DNA from: an uncultured Mucilaginibacter sp.
Lineage (GTDB): Bacteria; Bacteroidota; Bacteroidia; Sphingobacteriales; Sphingobacteriaceae
Direction: 5' to 3'
Assembly (NCBI RefSeq): GCF_903893715.1
Contig: NZ_CAITNG010000139.1
Coordinates: 79,985-143,984 of the forward strand
DNA: 64,000 nucleotides
The notes below the pieces were generated by a model, which was given only the letters and a program-made list of their open reading frames with translations, made no database searches and had not been told where the DNA came from. Positions 5,893 to 20,196 of this stretch are shown here, one piece after another. A program made the translations under genes and the position numbers. The first letter of the stretch is position 1; the number at the start of each line of letters is the position of its first letter.

Positions 5893-7293
5893 TTAACCAC
5901 GATTAATTTTTAGCGTCATGCCGGGTTGCAGGTGGGTAACTTTGGTTCCGTTCAGCGATTTGATTTTTTCCACAGTAACACCGTCAAATTTTTCAGCTAT
6001 CTGCGAAAGGGTATCACCGCTGCGTACTTTATAAGTGATATAGCTTTTTTCGGCCGGTTTAGCCTTTGCCGAAGCATAATGTTCCGTTTGTGCCGGTTCG
6101 GTCAGCCTCAACTCCTGCCCTGTCGCTACTTTTAGTTTCTTCAGGCGGTTCCAAACTTTAAGGTCCTGCACTTCAACGCCATATTTATCAGCTATCGAGG
6201 CTAAGGTTTCACCTTTCTTTACTTTATGCGTACTCGGGCTTTCATCCGTATGCGATACTTTCTTGAAGCTCGATGGTTCGTTGCTGCTGGCCATTACAGG
6301 CTCCAATTGGTTTGGCGATATGGCACCATTGTTCAACACATCATACAATACCGCAAAATCTTGTTTGCCAATTTGTGGTATCACCAACCTTTTAGGCGAA
6401 GCGACAGTGCCATTGATAATGCGTTTTTTGTATTGTGGATTCAATATGGTGAGTTGCGCCATATCAATTTTCAGTGCCGACGATATCCCCGCAAGGGAAA
6501 CAAATTTGTTTACCATCACGGTATCTGTATGCAGCGAAACCTCGCAAGCACGAGGCACAATATCGTGTTTGTGGTAATAGTTCATTACGTAAGCCATGGC
6601 AATGTATGCGGGTACGTAATTACGTGTTTCGAGGGGCAAATATGGCCTTATCGACCAAAAATCGCTCGCCCCTGCCAACTGTATAGCGCGGGTAATGTTA
6701 CCCTTACCGCAATTGTATGACGCGATGGCTACCAGCCAATCGCCAAAATCCTGATAAGCATCCTTGATGTAAGCGGCGGCAGCATAACTGGCCTGTATCG
6801 GGTCGCGGCGCTCATCAATATAGTTGTCCATGTTCAAACCATAAAGCTTAGCCGTGGCGAACATAAACTGCCATGGGCCGGTAGCTCCGGAGTGCGAAAC
6901 AGCATAGGGGTCGAGCGATGACTCAATGATAGACAGATACTTAATTTCTTCAGGTATACCGGCGTCATGAAAAGCCTTTTCATATATCGGGAAGTAGTAT
7001 TTTGATAAGCCTATAACCTTGGCCATTTCATCCTTACGGTGGGTATAAATATCGATATAGCTTTGAACGTATTCGTTATAGTCAAGCGGTATCTCTTTCC
7101 TGATGGAATCTAAGCGGCGTTTGCTTAGCCCATCCTGGAAACCTGATACAATGGTTACCAACGGTACCAGCGAGGTGTCTTTTTTTATGATGCCTGAATC
7201 GGCTTTATTTGTTTTTGTATGTAGATATGAAGGGAGGGCTTTAACTTGCTGTAGGATAAGCAAAAGGGTGATAAAAGTCCAAAATTTCTTCAT
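5893..7293 (-). CDS. Membrane-bound lytic transglycosylase with two LysM domains (MltD-like)
   Basis: The protein (466 residues) should cleave the MurNAc-GlcNAc bond of peptidoglycan non-hydrolytically in the periplasm. It has a signal peptide (MKKFWTFITLLLILQQVKA). An SLT family 1 domain spans about 100-230, with the catalytic Glu in LSIIESSLDPYAVSHSGATG followed by GPWQFMFATAKLYGL and ASYNCGKGN. Two C-terminal LysM repeats bind glycan strands (HKVKKGETLASIADKYGV and YKVRSGDTLSQIAEKFDG). The architecture is that of MltD. It is a single gene between its own terminator and gatA. A second, shorter transglycosylase without LysM lies at 32.5-33.2 kb. Confidence 0.92.
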   Translation of the reverse strand: MKKFWTFITLLLILQQVKALPSYLHTKTNKADSGIIKKDTSLVPLVTIVSGFQDGLSKRRLDSIRKEIPLDYNEYVQSYIDIYTHRKDEMAKVIGLSKYYFPIYEKAFHDAGIPEEIKYLSIIESSLDPYAVSHSGATGPWQFMFATAKLYGLNMDNYIDERRDPIQASYAAAAYIKDAYQDFGDWLVAIASYNCGKGNITRAIQLAGASDFWSIRPYLPLETRNYVPAYIAMAYVMNYYHKHDIVPRACEVSLHTDTVMVNKFVSLAGISSALKIDMAQLTILNPQYKKRIINGTVASPKRLVIPQIGKQDFAVLYDVLNNGAISPNQLEPVMASSNEPSSFKKVSHTDESPSTHKVKKGETLASIADKYGVEVQDLKVWNRLKKLKVATGQELRLTEPAQTEHYASAKAKPAEKSYITYKVRSGDTLSQIAEKFDGVTVEKIKSLNGTKVTHLQPGMTLKINRG

Positions 7294-7351
7294 GCGCGTT
7301 TATTTTTTAGTGTTCAATAAAGCAAGGCTTTAGTCAAAGCGTACTAAGATA

Positions 7352-8785
7352 CTAATTTTTAGAGAGTTCCAAAAAGTATTTGGAAAAAGCGAGCAAACCG
7401 GCCTCATCAAAACATTTGCCCGACAGCTGTAAAGCTGACGGCAAACCGGCAGCGTTATTGCCTAAGGGCAACGAAATAGCAGGTATTCCCGCTAAGGCGG
7501 CCTGCACGGTAAATATGTCTTCCAGGTACATGACGATAGGATCTTTTATGTTCTCGCCAATGTTAAAGGGCGGTGTAGGTGTTGTTGGCGATAGGATAAA
7601 ATCGTAATCATGCAGTATTTCGAGGGTTTTGTCCCTTATCAATCTTCTTATTTTTTGAGCTTTGGCGTAGTAAGCATCGTAATAGCCCGAGCTCAACACA
7701 AAGGTGCCCAGCATAATGCGGCGTTTCACTTCTTTGCCAAAACCTTCGGAACGCGATTTTTTATAGGTCGACTCCAAATCGGTGGCATTGGGGCTTCGGT
7801 AACCAAAATGTACGCCATCATATTTTGCCAGGTTGGATGATGCTTCCGCCATGGTCAAAATATAGTATGTAGGCACTACATAGTCCATGTATTCAAACGA
7901 TATGGGCTCAACTATGTGGCCTTCGCTTTTCAGTTTTTCGATGTATTGCAGCAGCACATCTTTTATTTCCTGGTCAACACCGGGGCTGGTTAAGGCTTCT
8001 TCAATAAAGGCTATCTTTTTTTTGCCTTTAAACGCAAGGTCTTTTTGGTACTCCGGCACCGGCCTGTGCGAAATGGTGGCATCGTATTCATCGGCGCCGG
8101 CCATTACTTCCAGTAAAATAGCGGCATCTTCTACCGACCGTGCCAAGGGGCCCACCTGGTCGAACGATGAGGCGTAAGCGATAATGCCATACCTCGATAT
8201 CCGCCCATAGGTCGGTCTTAAGCCAATACTCCCGCAAAACGCTGCAGGTTGCCTTACCGAACCGCCTGTATCGGTACCGATAGCTGCATGGCACATCCCT
8301 GCCTGCACGGCAACAGCCGCCCCGCCCGATGAACCACCCGGTACTTTGTTGGTATCCGCATAGTTTTTTACAGGACCATAATGTGAGGTTTCGTTCGAGC
8401 CGCCCATGGCAAACTCGTCGCTGTTGGTACGGCCTATAATAATGGCATCCTCTGCCAGCAAACGTTCGATAATGGTGGATGAATAGATGGAAGTAAATCC
8501 TTCCAATATTTTTGATGAGGCGCTAACTTTGTGGTCCTTGTAGCAAATATTGTCCTTAATTGCCAAAACCAAACCCGCCAGCTTACCCGCTTTGCCGCTC
8601 TTTATTTTATCGTCGAGTGCTTTGGCACATCCCAAAGCTTCCTGATCAAAAACTTCAAGAAAGGCGTTTAAATGACTGTGCAGCTTTATTTGCGACAAAT
8701 ATTCTTCAACCAGCTTCACAACCGATGTTTTTCCTTGTTGAAGGTCGGCCTGTATGTCCGACAAATTAGTGTACAGTTCCGTCAT
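7352..8785 (-). CDS. gatA: Asp-tRNA(Asn)/Glu-tRNA(Gln) amidotransferase subunit A
   Basis: GatA is the glutaminase subunit of GatCAB. It releases ammonia that converts Glu-tRNA(Gln) or Asp-tRNA(Asn) to the amidated form. The 477-residue protein shows the amidase-signature Ser-cisSer-Lys triad: Lys in GLVLAIKDNICYKD, and the serines in VPGGSSGGAAVAV and GTDTGGSVRQPAAFCGSIGL. The C-terminus ends with the family-typical GIPAISLPLG and GLPSALQLSGK. gatB and gatC are not adjacent, which is common in Bacteroidota. A possible TATATTTG box 67 bases upstream coincides with the envC terminator hairpin, so the promoter is not settled. Confidence 0.96.
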   Translation of the reverse strand: MTELYTNLSDIQADLQQGKTSVVKLVEEYLSQIKLHSHLNAFLEVFDQEALGCAKALDDKIKSGKAGKLAGLVLAIKDNICYKDHKVSASSKILEGFTSIYSSTIIERLLAEDAIIIGRTNSDEFAMGGSNETSHYGPVKNYADTNKVPGGSSGGAAVAVQAGMCHAAIGTDTGGSVRQPAAFCGSIGLRPTYGRISRYGIIAYASSFDQVGPLARSVEDAAILLEVMAGADEYDATISHRPVPEYQKDLAFKGKKKIAFIEEALTSPGVDQEIKDVLLQYIEKLKSEGHIVEPISFEYMDYVVPTYYILTMAEASSNLAKYDGVHFGYRSPNATDLESTYKKSRSEGFGKEVKRRIMLGTFVLSSGYYDAYYAKAQKIRRLIRDKTLEILHDYDFILSPTTPTPPFNIGENIKDPIVMYLEDIFTVQAALAGIPAISLPLGNNAAGLPSALQLSGKCFDEAGLLAFSKYFLELSKN

Positions 8786-8846
8786 TTGCAGCGAAAATAA
8801 ATAAATTGATTAAAGCATGGCGGAAATCAATAATTAACAAACAAAA

Positions 8847-8869
8847 AATCCTACAAATATAATAGGATT
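8847..8869 (-). terminator. Hairpin/T-tract after the EnvC-like gene
   Basis: The stem AATCCTA / TAGGATT has a nine-base loop. On the minus strand it is followed by TTTTTTGTTTG, placed 35 bases past the stop of the EnvC-like gene. The loop reads TTATATTTG on the minus strand and so also contains a TAnnTTTG-type box that could serve gatA. Confidence 0.6.
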
Positions 8870-8903
8870 AGTATAAATTACTTGGTGTTACTTTACTTTT
8901 ATA

Positions 8904-10178
8904 TCAATTTTGTGCAAGCCAGCCCGCGGGATCCATATATTCTTCGCCTTTCAGCACTTGAAATTCTATTTCTGTTTCGCCTGTTGCAGGGTCGGGTGCA
9001 GCCACACCGATGCTTTGTTTGGTGTTCACTTTTTGCCCTTTTGATACCGATACTGATTTTAGATTTGAGTAGGCCGTAAAATACCCCCCATGCCTTATCA
9101 CCACGGTGTAGGTACCGCTAACATCTTGTACAATCAATACCACACCTTCAAAAACTGCCCTAACCTGCGCGTTCTCATTGGTTTTGATGCTCACGCCCTG
9201 ATTTTCGTCGCGAATGCCATTTATAATTACGGTACCAAAACCATGCAGGAACATACCGTTTGCAACAGGCCACGGCAAACGGCCGCGGTTGCCCAAAAAG
9301 TCGCTCGATAGTTTCGCGGCCTCCGGCGTTGCATTTAAAGCCTCATTAATTGTCCTTGCCGGTTTCCTAACAGCCGATACCGTCGACTTGATATTATCTT
9401 TCGCAGCGGCTTTTTCGTCGGCGGCAGCCTTGGCAGCAGCGCGACGGTTCTCTTCTTCTATTTCCCTGCGGATTGCATCCTGTATCGCCCTGTTGATGCG
9501 TGCCAACTGGCGTTGCGCCGTGGCTGTTTGCTCTTTTAACTGCTTTTGGTGCTGCGAAAGGTCTATCACCTTATTGGCCTGCTCCTTTTTAGCCTGCCCC
9601 AACGCGACTGCTTCCTTTTCCTGCTCAGCCAACAAATCGCTTTTCTCTTTTTTATGCTTGTCTAACTGTACAATTTTTACACCCAGGTCTTTTTCAGTGC
9701 CGGTGATATACTCGGCCTGACGCACCCTGTACGAACCAATTTGTTGCAGGTATTTAAGGCGTTTATAGGCCAGATTAAAATCTTTAGATGTGAAAATGAA
9801 CATCAGCTTATTGTATGCGCTTTGGTTACGAAAAGCGAACAATACCATGGCCGCGTATTGTTTTTTGAGCTCCGCCAATTGCGACTGCAGGCTATGTACC
9901 TCGTTGGTATTATCGGTAATTTGGCTGTCCAGCTGGCGTATGTCCGAGTCGATATTCTTTATCTTTTTCTCCAGAACTTCAATCTTCTCTTTAATAAGGT
10001 TAAGCTGTAACAGGGTCGATTTTTTGTTATTGGATGTTACTTCAAGTTCGTGGTTAAGCCTTTGCAGTTCCTGGTTCAGGTTATCACGTTGCTTTTTTAG
10101 CTCGTCGCTGCTTTGCGCAAACGCCCTGGTGGCGCCCATAACGATCATAAAAAACAGGAGTGCTTTAAAAAACTTCAT
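8904..10178 (-). CDS. EnvC-like murein hydrolase activator (coiled coil plus degenerate LytM)
   Basis: About 424 residues from ATG 10178; the ORF-track start is a TTG one codon upstream. It has a signal peptide (MKFFKALLFFMIVMGATRAFAQ), then long coiled coils (about 25-250, rich in E/K/Q) and a C-terminal M23/LytM-like domain from GRLPWPVANGMFLHGFG. That order is typical of EnvC. The catalytic zinc ligands of true LytM enzymes (HxGxD and HxH) are not found: the matching segments read FGTVIINGIRDENQGV and GETEIEFQVLKG. It is therefore probably an activator of amidases in cell separation and not itself a hydrolase. It is last in the flippase-dut-TPR-DUF4292 cluster and also has a TATATTTG box four bases before its ATG. 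Confidence 0.88.
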   Translation of the reverse strand: MKFFKALLFFMIVMGATRAFAQSSDELKKQRDNLNQELQRLNHELEVTSNNKKSTLLQLNLIKEKIEVLEKKIKNIDSDIRQLDSQITDNTNEVHSLQSQLAELKKQYAAMVLFAFRNQSAYNKLMFIFTSKDFNLAYKRLKYLQQIGSYRVRQAEYITGTEKDLGVKIVQLDKHKKEKSDLLAEQEKEAVALGQAKKEQANKVIDLSQHQKQLKEQTATAQRQLARINRAIQDAIRREIEEENRRAAAKAAADEKAAAKDNIKSTVSAVRKPARTINEALNATPEAAKLSSDFLGNRGRLPWPVANGMFLHGFGTVIINGIRDENQGVSIKTNENAQVRAVFEGVVLIVQDVSGTYTVVIRHGGYFTAYSNLKSVSVSKGQKVNTKQSIGVAAPDPATGETEIEFQVLKGEEYMDPAGWLAQN

Positions 10179-16312: not shown

Positions 16313-16320
16313 TAACTTTG
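16313..16320 (+). promoter_or_regulatory. -7 box of rlmN
   Basis: TAACTTTG fits the TAnnTTTG consensus and ends six bases before ATG 16327. The ORF-track start TTG (16318) is simply the last three bases of this element, so translation cannot begin there if the promoter is used. Confidence 0.7.
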
Positions 16321-16326
16321 CAAACG

Positions 16327-17382
16327 ATGCAAAAATCTAAAACAGATATCCGAAGCCTAAGCCTCGACACCCTGCAAAAGCAATTTGTTGAATTAGGGGA
16401 AAAAAGTTTTCGGGCAAAACAGGTTTATGAATGGCTTTGGAAAAAATCGTGCTTTTCGTTTAACGAAATGAGCAATCTTTCTCTCGAGCTTCGCCAAAAA
16501 CTTGATGAGCTTTTTGTAATCAATAGCGTAAAGGTAAATACTTCGCAGTACAGTTCTGACAAAACCATAAAAAATTCTTTTGTTTTATACGATGGGAACC
16601 TTATTGAAGGCGTTTTGATACCTGCCGACGACCGTATGACGGCCTGTGTATCATCGCAGGTAGGTTGCAGCCTTACGTGTAAATTTTGTGCTACGGGGTA
16701 CATGGACCGTAAGCGTAACCTTAACCCCGACGAAATTTATGACCAGGTTGTGTTGATTGACCAGCAGGCGCGCAAACATTATGGCCATAATTTAACCAAT
16801 ATTGTGTACATGGGTATGGGCGAACCATTACTCAATTATGCCAACGTTTTGAAGTCGGTTGAGCGCATTACTGCCGAGGATGGGTTGAACATGGCTGCCA
16901 AAAGAATAACGGTATCAACCGCTGGCATAGCCAAAATGATAAAAAAACTGGGCGATGATGGTGTAAAGTTTAATCTGGCGCTATCGCTGCATGCCGCCAA
17001 TGATGCCAAGCGTAACGAGATAATGCCCATTAACGAGCAAAATACCCTAAAAGCATTGGCCGAGGCGCTAAAATATTACTATGCCAAAACCAAAAACCCG
17101 GTTACCTACGAATACATTGTTTTTAACGATTTTAATGACGAGCTACAAGATGCTGCCGAACTGGCCAAATTTTGCAAGCACGTGCCCTGCAAGGTAAATA
17201 TCATCGAATATAACCCCATATCTTTCGCCAGTTATACCAATGCCGCTATAGATAAAATAGAAGCTTTTGCCGATTATTTGCGCAAGCAGGATATCATCAC
17301 CAATGTTCGGCGCAGCCGCGGGAAAGACATTGATGCCGCCTGCGGACAGCTGGCCATAAAAGAGAAAGCTGCCGAGGCGTAA
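16327..17382 (+). CDS. rlmN: 23S rRNA (adenine-C2)-methyltransferase RlmN
   Basis: RlmN is a radical-SAM enzyme that methylates C2 of A2503 in 23S rRNA and A37 of some tRNAs. From ATG 16327 it has 351 residues. The cluster motif CKFCATGYMDRKR is present, with the second catalytic Cys in the C-terminal DAACGQLAIK. YMGMGEPLLNYANV is the GEP SAM motif, and ISFASYTNA and GKDIDAACGQL are also typical. I prefer ATG 16327 over TTG 16318 because the TTG lies inside a TAACTTTG promoter box. The gene is monocistronic, with 91 bases before the YHYH gene. Confidence 0.97.
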   Translation: MQKSKTDIRSLSLDTLQKQFVELGEKSFRAKQVYEWLWKKSCFSFNEMSNLSLELRQKLDELFVINSVKVNTSQYSSDKTIKNSFVLYDGNLIEGVLIPADDRMTACVSSQVGCSLTCKFCATGYMDRKRNLNPDEIYDQVVLIDQQARKHYGHNLTNIVYMGMGEPLLNYANVLKSVERITAEDGLNMAAKRITVSTAGIAKMIKKLGDDGVKFNLALSLHAANDAKRNEIMPINEQNTLKALAEALKYYYAKTKNPVTYEYIVFNDFNDELQDAAELAKFCKHVPCKVNIIEYNPISFASYTNAAIDKIEAFADYLRKQDIITNVRRSRGKDIDAACGQLAIKEKAAEA

Positions 17383-17473
17383 CTACTTCCAACAAAATAT
17401 TTGTTTTCTTCCGCAGGATTTTAATCCAGGTGACATCTTATGATATACACTCATTCACCCAAATTATCTGATC

Positions 17474-18262
17474 ATGGAAAATAAACTTATAGGTATAGTA
17501 CAGGGAAGCACCTTACTCATTACCGCAATATTACTTACAGCAACTATCGCTTGCAAAAAAGCGGCTTCCGACTCAACCACCGGAACAACCACAACCACTA
17601 TTGGCACAGGTGTGCCCGATATTTATAAAAAGATATACGGCGCGACAAGCATCACTACCGACGGTACTTATATCACCATCAAAGCCACCAGCTTGCCCGA
17701 CCATAAATCGCCTTACTACAAAGGCACACAATGGGCCGCTACTTTATACGAAGCTTACAACGGTACAAACCCGCTTTGGAGCCAAAACCCTAATTCTATT
17801 GCTGAAAACGATGTAACTTATAAAATTCCGTTGAACCCAACCGTGGCTTCAACACACTCGGCCACGCCGCTCGGGCCAATGGGCGTAGCGTTGAATGGTG
17901 TGCCTATTTTTAACCAGTATGCGGCAGGCGGTGCTGCCCTTACCGGCGAAGTTAACAGCTTCGACGAATATGATGGACACCCGCAGCAATCTGGCATGTA
18001 CCATTACCATGCCGAGCCCTACTATCTCACTACCAAAAACGGTGAAAGTTCGCTCATTGGCTTTTTGTTGGACGGCTTCCCGGTTTATGGCCCAATGGAA
18101 AATGGTAAAACCCTAACCAATGCCGACCTCGACGTTTACCACGGCCATACCAGCGCCACAGCCGATTATCCTAATGGTATTTACCATTACCATATCACCA
18201 GCGCGGCACCTTACATTAACGGAAATGGTTTTTATGGCACTGCGGGTACAGTATCGCAATAA
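17474..18262 (+). CDS. YHYH-domain lipoprotein
   Basis: The 262-residue protein has a signal peptide with a lipobox-like LLTATIACKK and should be lipid-anchored in the envelope. The YHYH domain covers about 110-262. Its name motif occurs twice, SGMYHYHAEPYYL and NGIYHYHITSAAPYING, with DVYHGHTSATADYP between. The domain has no assigned biochemical role as far as I know. The clustered His/Tyr pairs suggest metal binding or a redox function, but that is inference. It is first in a short operon: the MORN-repeat gene overlaps its end by 29 bases, and SCO1, a copper protein, follows. Confidence 0.9.
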   Translation: MENKLIGIVQGSTLLITAILLTATIACKKAASDSTTGTTTTTIGTGVPDIYKKIYGATSITTDGTYITIKATSLPDHKSPYYKGTQWAATLYEAYNGTNPLWSQNPNSIAENDVTYKIPLNPTVASTHSATPLGPMGVALNGVPIFNQYAAGGAALTGEVNSFDEYDGHPQQSGMYHYHAEPYYLTTKNGESSLIGFLLDGFPVYGPMENGKTLTNADLDVYHGHTSATADYPNGIYHYHITSAAPYINGNGFYGTAGTVSQ

Positions 18263-18809
18263 GCTCTTGGGCTTGGTACTTTTATTAACTGTTTATTGCT
18301 GCGGATGCAACCGGCAGGCCACAAACACGGTTAAGGTAAACATTGCCGATACAGCGCTTAAGCAAATAGCGGGGGTATTTTTCTATCATGATTCCCCTTT
18401 TACAGGGTTGATATATTCGACATATCCGGGCGGCGACACCGCGAGGGCCGAAACGTTTATTGAGGGTAAAGAGGATGGTTGGTTAAAGTGGTGGTACCCT
18501 AATAAACAACTGGCGCAGCTCCGTTTTTTTACCGATGGTAAAAAGCAAGGGGTGCACCGGGGTTGGTGGGAAGACGGCAAACCTAAATTTGAATACCATT
18601 TTGCGAACGACGAGCACGAAGGCGAAGCAAAAGAATGGTTCAAAAGCGGTGCGCTGTGCCGGGTATTCCATTACAAAGCCGGGCACGAAGAAGGCAGCGA
18701 AAAAATGTGGTGGGAAAACGGAAAGATACGCGCCAACTATGTAGTGATTAACGGCGAAAAGTTTGGTCTTTTCGGGCAAAAGTTATGTGTTAACCCGGTG
18801 AACAAATAG
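18234..18809 (+). CDS. MORN_2-repeat (YwqK-type) lipoprotein
   Basis: The ORF track begins too early (18120). The likely start is ATG 18234 (MALRVQYRNKLLGLVLLL), which gives a signal peptide with a Cys-rich cleavage region (TVYCCGCNR) and 191 residues. It overlaps the YHYH gene by 29 bases. The mature part has four or five W/Y-x-x-G-K repeats of the MORN_2 type, for example EDGWLKWWYPNKQLAQLRFF and GVHRGWWEDGKPKFEYHF. Databases often label such proteins toxin-antitoxin system YwqK family antitoxin, a name that says little here because no toxin is adjacent. The context points to an envelope role with YHYH and SCO1. Confidence 0.82.
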   Translation: MALRVQYRNKLLGLVLLLTVYCCGCNRQATNTVKVNIADTALKQIAGVFFYHDSPFTGLIYSTYPGGDTARAETFIEGKEDGWLKWWYPNKQLAQLRFFTDGKKQGVHRGWWEDGKPKFEYHFANDEHEGEAKEWFKSGALCRVFHYKAGHEEGSEKMWWENGKIRANYVVINGEKFGLFGQKLCVNPVNK

Positions 18810-18816
18810 TAACACG

Positions 18817-19461
18817 ATGAAAAAGCTCTTTCTATTATTTTTAACCTTCGCTATAGCGGGATGCAGCCAAAAAAAGGAGCAGGCGGCAACTGTACTCCCC
18901 TATTTTAACACACCCGATTTTACCCCAACCTGGCCCGATAAGACTACGGATGCTTTCCAAAAGATGCATGTGATACCGGCCTTCAGCTTTACCGACCAGT
19001 ACGGGCAGCAGGTAAGTAATCAAACGGTTGTCAACAAAGTGTACGTGGCCGATTTCTTTTTTACCCGTTGCGGCAGCATTTGTCCCATCATGACGGATAA
19101 TATGAACAAAGTAGCAGCGGCATTTATGAACGACCGTAATGTGATGATACTATCGCATTCGGTAACGCCCGAACTGGACAATGTGGGTATATTAAAGCAA
19201 TACGCTGCTCAAAAACACATTACCAACCCAAACTGGCATTTACTTACAGGCGATAAGCAACAGATATACACCCTTGCCCGGCGCGGCTATTTTGCCGATG
19301 AGGAGATAGGCTACAATAAAGATGTTACTCAATTTTTGCATACCGAGAATTTTATCTTAGTAGACCGTAAGGGGCATATCCGTGGAGTTTACAACGGTAC
19401 CGTTCCTTTTGAAGTGGAAAGCCTCATCAGGCATATCAAAATACTGGAGCAGGAGCTATAA
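18817..19461 (+). CDS. SCO1/SenC-family copper/thiol-disulfide lipoprotein
   Basis: The 214-residue thioredoxin-fold protein has the lipobox FAIAGCSQKK. SCO proteins deliver copper to the CuA site of cytochrome oxidase or reduce its cysteines, on the periplasmic face. The CxxxC copper ligands are in FTRCGSICPIMTDNM, and the third ligand, a late His, is in QFLHTENFILVDR. It follows the MORN-repeat gene by seven bases and is therefore in one transcript with the YHYH protein. No cytochrome oxidase subunit lies in the window. Confidence 0.93.
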   Translation: MKKLFLLFLTFAIAGCSQKKEQAATVLPYFNTPDFTPTWPDKTTDAFQKMHVIPAFSFTDQYGQQVSNQTVVNKVYVADFFFTRCGSICPIMTDNMNKVAAAFMNDRNVMILSHSVTPELDNVGILKQYAAQKHITNPNWHLLTGDKQQIYTLARRGYFADEEIGYNKDVTQFLHTENFILVDRKGHIRGVYNGTVPFEVESLIRHIKILEQEL

Positions 19462-19497
19462 ATTTAAATTTTGTGCTGAATGTGCTATATTCAAACA

Positions 19498-20196
19498 ATG
19501 AAATGGCGCAATACTTATTTAAGCGATTTTATTGCTTTGATATTTCCGGAGCTTTGCCAGGCTTGCGGCAATAGCCTGTTGCGTAACGAGGAATTGATAT
19601 GTACCGCTTGTACTTACGACCTGCCTTTTACCAATTTTCATTTGCATACTGATAATGTAGTGGCCAAACAGCTTTGGGGTCGTGTTGATGTAGCGATGGT
19701 TTATGTATTGCTGTATTTTACCAAAGGCGGTAACGTGCAAAACATAATGCACAGCTTTAAGTACAAAAACATGCCGCGTATTGGCAATAAGTTGGGTAGC
19801 ATAGCCGGAACACAATTAATGCAAAGTGAACAAGCCGAAAACATCGATATCATCATACCGGTACCATTACATCCCGAAAAATTACGGTTGCGAGGTTATA
19901 ACCAAAGCGCCCAGTTTGCACAAGGCCTGTCAGACAGGCTGCTGAAACCTGTGGAGATTGATAACCTCATCAGGTTAAAGCACACCGATACACAAACCAA
20001 AAAATCGCGGTTTTCGAGGTACGAGAATATGAAAGATGTTTTTAAAGTGAACGCGCCTGAAAAGCTGGAGGGTAAACATGTTTTGCTCGTGGACGATATC
20101 ATCACAACAGGCTCAACCATTGAGGCTTGTGGAATTGAGTTATTAAAAGTGCCGGGGTTGAAGCTAAGCGTGGCGGCTATAGCTTATGCGGAGTAA
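19498..20196 (+). CDS. comF: ComF-family phosphoribosyltransferase-like protein
   Basis: About 232 residues from ATG 19498 (MKWRNTYLSDFIALIFPELC); the track's earlier ATG at 19480 is possible. The N-terminal zinc ribbon is CQACGNSLLRNEELICTAC. The C-terminal PRTase domain contains the PRPP loop HVLLVDDIITTGSTIEACG, plus the ComF-typical PVPLHPEKLRLRGYNQSAQFA and DTQTKKSRFSRYENM. In naturally competent bacteria ComF acts after DNA uptake, but the gene is widespread in non-competent ones. It is convergent with the histidine kinase gene, 19 bases away. Confidence 0.92.
   Translation: MKWRNTYLSDFIALIFPELCQACGNSLLRNEELICTACTYDLPFTNFHLHTDNVVAKQLWGRVDVAMVYVLLYFTKGGNVQNIMHSFKYKNMPRIGNKLGSIAGTQLMQSEQAENIDIIIPVPLHPEKLRLRGYNQSAQFAQGLSDRLLKPVEIDNLIRLKHTDTQTKKSRFSRYENMKDVFKVNAPEKLEGKHVLLVDDIITTGSTIEACGIELLKVPGLKLSVAAIAYAE

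Follow-up and report, generated by a model that had tools for sequence, protein, structure and literature searches.

Why do three genes for envelope proteins, a YHYH protein, a MORN_2-repeat protein and an SCO1 protein, lie so closely together, and on what might their products act? The question is raised by a locus within a 64,000-nucleotide stretch of DNA from an uncultured Mucilaginibacter sp. (the whole of this stretch is called the window below), where the initial annotation had described the trio as a possible metal module of the envelope, acting on copper or on a cuproenzyme such as cytochrome oxidase. The genes concerned are the following:

17474-18262, + strand: gene for the YHYH protein (PF14240), 262 aa, a predicted lipoprotein and candidate metal (copper) protein
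18234-18809, + strand: gene for the MORN_2-repeat envelope protein, 191 aa, a predicted lipoprotein with an invariant Cys185 near the C terminus
18817-19461, + strand: gene for the SCO1/SenC lipoprotein, 214 aa, with the CxxxC cysteines C85 and C89 (codons at 19069 and 19081) and H175 (codon at 19339)

The products match Pfam YHYH with 94.6 bits (cut-off 25, so that the curated threshold is passed), MORN_2 with 42.3 bits (cut-off 29.6) and SCO1-SenC with 87.1 bits (cut-off 22.8). Coordinates and Pfam matches agree with the trio as it was first described, including the 29-nt overlap, with the ATG of the MORN gene at 18234 inside the YHYH gene, and the gap of 7 nt between the end of the MORN gene at 18809 and the start of SCO1. 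The two YHYH motifs with a YHGH between them were likewise found in place, at residues 176-179, 222-225 (YHGH) and 237-240. The triad is flanked by rlmN upstream (16318-17382) and by a comF-like phosphoribosyltransferase gene downstream (19480-20196), and its closest named relatives are from Mucilaginibacter. The signal or lipobox cysteine is invariant in the aligned relatives of the YHYH protein (C27) and of SCO1 (C16), and is present in most, not all, relatives of the MORN protein.

Conservation of the gene trio

The initial annotation proposed looking for conserved adjacency across the Bacteroidota, and adjacency is indeed conserved. In a hand-made list of 44 short-form YHYH loci from the sampled Bacteroidota, which excludes further tandem copies and long forms, an SCO1 gene lies at most 3 kb away in 43, far more than chance predicts, as four SCO1 genes in a 4-Mb genome would give about 0.006 per locus. 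Short forms are here proteins of about 250-300 aa in which the domain match comes in two pieces, and the whole-genome Pfam searches were run separately for YHYH and for SCO1. When all three genes are considered, they occur together in 73 of the 80 named loci from Bacteroidota and Ignavibacteria, most of the remaining loci being contig ends. The order is YHYH, MORN, SCO1 in 62 of these triads and YHYH, SCO1, MORN in the other 11, so that the gene set holds together while its order changes, and the genes flanking the triad differ from genus to genus.

The MORN gene was found as the third member both at the family and at the phylum level in searches of relatives, and a search anchored on MORN gave a similar picture: 19 of the 20 complete loci with a strong MORN match and an adjacent SCO1 are YHYH-MORN-SCO1, the sole exception having the arrangement multicopper oxidase-MORN-SCO1. 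The three genes are thus almost certainly one unit with conserved adjacency. That they also form one functional envelope unit is supported, at the level of sequence, by the conserved adjacency, the shuffled order and the differing flanking genes. Literature searches did not find a description of the triad, and NCBIfam gave no useful name.

The predicted ECF promoter and its regulators

The feature extends beyond the three genes, owing to a predicted ECF promoter ahead of them and to regulators encoded on another contig of the same genome:

17410-17441 (core 17412-17440), + strand: predicted ECF promoter, with -35 box CGCAGGAT, a 14-nt spacer and -10 box CATCTTA, about 33 nt before the YHYH start
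7275-9273 of locus L195 (G000:C112), - strand: operon for an ECF sigma factor, an anti-sigma-like protein, a PF13801 sensor and an LTXXQ protein, on a separate contig of the window genome

Clustering of neighbours over about 120 loci (partly non-independent, with some genomes counted twice) identified three recurrent genes on the same strand. Their products are an ECF sigma factor, a membrane-anchored PF13801 protein and, in the position usual for an anti-sigma factor, a small membrane protein of ~100 aa. This block is mostly upstream of YHYH, with two loci in which it is downstream and two or three in which it is divergent, and in several Mucilaginibacter genomes it lies between rlmN and YHYH. 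A local ECF gene is absent from about half of the loci. The window has none of the three regulatory genes, all of which are kept on the other contig; two relatives, G121 and G180, are arranged as the window genome is, with no block at the triad and a single ECF-antisigma-sensor-LTXXQ operon elsewhere. The genes of the operon in the window genome were recognised with profiles derived from relatives matching Sigma70 and PF13801, and sigma factor, membrane protein and sensor are encoded together. The small membrane protein matches no anti-sigma family, and its role is for that reason assigned by position. In a further genome (G162) it is the triad that has been relocated, and the regulators are still beside rlmN. 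Of 61 Mucilaginibacter genomes, 4 have both the sensor and YHYH, 2 have the sensor without YHYH, none has YHYH without the sensor and 55 have neither (Fisher 2.9e-5, a value that ignores phylogeny). At one locus (L210 3762-7938, G634:C18) the block is followed by a small PqqD-like gene and by ATP-grasp-like and amino-acid decarboxylase-like genes (identified by eye).

The promoter motif was trained on 52 ECF upstream regions of other genomes, with the window genome outside the training set. The motif, CG[AC]A[GA]G[TA]T-N14-C[GA]TCTAA, is present in 28 of these 52 regions compared to 2% of shuffles, mostly no more than 30 nt from the ECF start. When both strands of the window are considered, the best match is the site at 17410-17441 with a score of 21.2, the runner-up scoring 15.5. 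Exact matches to the IUPAC motif occur only twice in the 4-Mb genome, one before YHYH and the other immediately ahead of LTXXQ in the ECF operon, and a site with one mismatch precedes the ECF gene. The same three types of site (before YHYH, LTXXQ and the ECF gene) are found in G121 and G180, and in these two relatives the promoter boxes are conserved and the sequence around them has diverged.

More generally, the motif precedes YHYH in 48 of 68 cases with a local ECF gene and in 20 of 60 without one, compared to 1.4% of random stretches. The 40 YHYH genes that have neither a local ECF gene nor the motif show that regulation by an ECF factor is not universal. For the window operon, the motif and its positions make it likely that the ECF factor exerts control in trans. 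A promoter common to every Bacteroidota ECF locus of this type was considered and rejected, as four loci (with a long-form YHYH, or with the ECF block away from YHYH) lack the motif, and matches with one mismatch inside coding regions (L253, L268, L250, L258) were dismissed as chance.

A similar row of genes, with ECF sigma factor, small membrane anti-sigma-like protein and PF13801 periplasmic sensor, is found in the CnrYXH and NccYXH systems of Cupriavidus, where the promoter likewise looks autoregulated. CnrX and NccX are sensors of nickel and cobalt, and the metal ligands of CnrX are three His, a Glu and a Met. The predicted target differs, being YHYH-MORN-SCO1 here and an RND efflux pump there, and the system is split in the window genome. 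Compared to solved structures, the PF13801 sensor matches Spy (E 4e-6), NccX (4e-4) and CnrX (8e-3). It has two nearly invariant His residues, one of which is aligned with the H of the NccX segment HVFEM; this is the only ligand position of CnrX type that is clearly common, the position of the CnrX Met not being conserved in these sensors.

Candidate metal ligands and genomic context

The sequence of the YHYH protein contains two sets of candidate ligands:

17963-18010, + strand: candidate metal site 1, D164, H169, H177 and H179 (DEYDGH...YHYH), invariant or almost invariant across short- and long-form proteins
18131-18193, + strand: candidate metal site 2, D220, H225, H238 and H240 (DVYHGH...YHYH), an internal repeat of site 1

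The pattern D-x3-GH-xn-YHYH occurs twice in short forms, and its second copy (D220/H225/H238/H240) is present in 95 of 99 short sequences. The repetition points to a duplication within the protein, which may have two sites. For the YHYH domain of phage tails (PF14240), a zinc site of three His plus Asp and a role as a metal-dependent hydrolase have been predicted (PMC7824862). The window protein has the same domain with the three-His plus Asp set conserved, and differs from the phage protein in being a predicted lipoprotein, in carrying the D/H/H/H motif twice and in being encoded in one operon with SCO1. Its structure is predicted with confidence across the domain (mean pLDDT 85, pTM 0.79); a fold search against solved structures gave no match at E <= 0.001, the only fold matches being viral YHYH proteins, and a search of solved structures by sequence gave nothing usable. 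Other YHYH proteins adjoin metallophosphatases or sulfatases, or occur in phage tails, and in view of these contexts the domain could be a hydrolase or a metal site of a general kind. The window genome has a second YHYH gene (L053 3533-7905, G000:C6), encoding 464 aa, which is found with two calcineurin-like metallophosphatases and without SCO1.

The module SCO1 resembles known members of the SCO1/SenC/PrrC family (PF02630) in its thioredoxin-like sequence, and its CxxxC and His are in register with those of Bacillus YpmQ/BsSco (1xzo, 1on4). C85, C89 and H175 are invariant in 25 sequences and are in register with 4hde/1xzo. In the oxidase-linked SCO1 proteins L235, L234 and L233 (from G000, G180 and G113), one or both of the CxxxC cysteines have been lost, even though these proteins are encoded within oxidase operons.

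MbnP and MbnH are members of a copper-associated family. Genes for MbnP (PF20243) and for a di-haem MauG-like enzyme (CCP_MauG) are neighbours of YHYH at roughly half of the long-form loci, several of which have the ECF-antisigma-sensor block as well. The long-form gene comes directly after the MbnP and di-haem MauG-like genes in L207, L208, L209, L211, L216 and L054-L057. This pair, which is methanobactin-associated and known from beyond that setting, accompanies the long form and not the short form of the window; no MbnP or MbnH genes adjoin the window triad, and the ECF genes at the long-form loci lack the promoter motif. The accessible part of PMC3621798 describes the pair as resembling the copper proteins MopE and CorA, with close MbnP homologues then being without copper data, and contains no mention of a pairing with YHYH. 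In one genome (G583), a single case, a multicopper oxidase occupies the position of YHYH in a multicopper oxidase-MORN-SCO1 set under the same promoter motif (L274 5640-8306, G583:C10). The CxxxC and His of SCO1, the MbnP-MbnH genes beside long YHYH and the exchange for a multicopper oxidase together make copper the likeliest metal, and probably the right one.

A proposed copper-responsive module and its alternatives

We propose that the triad is the effector half of an ECF-controlled module that responds to a metal, most probably copper, and in which a copper-binding YHYH protein is loaded by SCO1 with the MORN protein as scaffold; we give this reading a rough probability of 0.55. A membrane sensor of CnrX/Spy type and the small anti-sigma-like protein would keep the ECF sigma factor inactive until a metal signal leads to its release. 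The freed factor would then transcribe its own operon, the periplasmic LTXXQ (Spy-like) protein and YHYH-MORN-SCO1, and in the window genome the regulators would reach the triad in trans, from the other contig, via the promoter at 17410-17441. By analogy with CnrX, Spy and the multicopper-oxidase relatives, an excess of metal is slightly favoured over a shortage as the inducing signal. Within the envelope, the SCO1 paralogue may act as a dedicated copper-loading or thiol-redox partner of YHYH, which would hold copper at one or two sites of D/H/H/H type, and the MORN lipoprotein could be a scaffold or adaptor between them. We put even odds on YHYH being the client of the module SCO1.

SCO1 proteins are assembly factors for CuA, and a member of their family is encoded in the operon, so the module might instead assemble or protect cytochrome oxidase, with SCO1 bringing copper to CuA and YHYH and MORN assisting. 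The loss of SCO1 cysteines beside COX1 in some genomes would also fit, as another SCO1 could then take over the function. However, in 6/6 genomes tested COX1 has another SCO1 gene about 5 kb away, and the module SCO1s, which have their own invariant residues and occur nearly always with YHYH and MORN and not beside COX1, are split from the oxidase-linked and other SCO1s in the tree with a support of 0.995. No oxidase gene is found among the recurrent neighbours of the triad, and YHYH is absent from most of the sampled Mucilaginibacter genomes, though COX1 is present in 6/6 checked. Owing largely to the separate SCO1 near COX1 and to the distinct clade of the module SCO1, an oxidase role is very improbable, and YHYH is a better candidate than cytochrome oxidase as the client of this SCO1. 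The original suggestion of a metal function is thus retained, with copper as the most probable metal from context, while that of cytochrome oxidase as the target is not.

The remaining alternatives concern the metal and the chemistry. The YHYH protein could be a zinc-dependent envelope hydrolase acting on cell-wall or surface substrates, with SCO1 as a thiol-disulfide reductase or stress protein of the same envelope-stress operon and with a metal other than copper in YHYH. The zinc site predicted for the phage domain, the conservation of the same ligands in short and long YHYH, the metallophosphatases and sulfatases beside long forms and a PF13801 sensor that is as Spy-like as it is CnrX-like are all consistent with this, but it leaves unexplained why an SCO1 with CxxxC and His is paired with YHYH in 43/44 loci, as well as the MbnP-MbnH neighbours and the multicopper-oxidase swap, and we consider it unlikely. 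A response operon for nickel/cobalt or another non-copper heavy metal, in which YHYH would act as a sponge for metal in the periplasm, would suit the His-rich YHYH protein, the PF13801 match and the similarity of the sensor to the NccX and CnrX structures. It is quite improbable given that SCO1, MbnP and the multicopper oxidase all indicate copper and that the sensors do not conserve the Met ligand position of CnrX.

Under the copper reading, YHYH proteins might further represent a new family of copper proteins, with a fold absent from solved structures and a duplicated D/H/H/H site; a dedicated SCO1 would load them, a split ECF regulon acting in trans would control their expression, and they could replace a multicopper oxidase across Bacteroidota. 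We put this forward tentatively, as possible but somewhat doubtful. The YHYH domain is widespread, occurring in bacteria, phages, giant viruses and diatoms, and for it literature searches found no tested function and structure searches no recognisable solved structure. The near-obligate pairing with a dedicated SCO1, together with an ECF promoter that predicts expression, makes YHYH a testable candidate copper protein. If the proposal is true, SCO1 paralogues, which are common in Bacteroidota, would gain a client distinct from cytochrome oxidase, and the phylum, whose metal-response regulons are poorly charted, would have part of one of them named.

Elsewhere in the window genome (L273 3-8420, G000:C69), an ECF promoter with one mismatch (contig site 41483-41511) lies before a gene for a 123-aa CNGRC protein, and the genes after it encode a TonB receptor, a DUF3347 protein, an outer-membrane efflux protein and an RND pump. 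Judged by its promoter, this cluster is a possible further member of the regulon.
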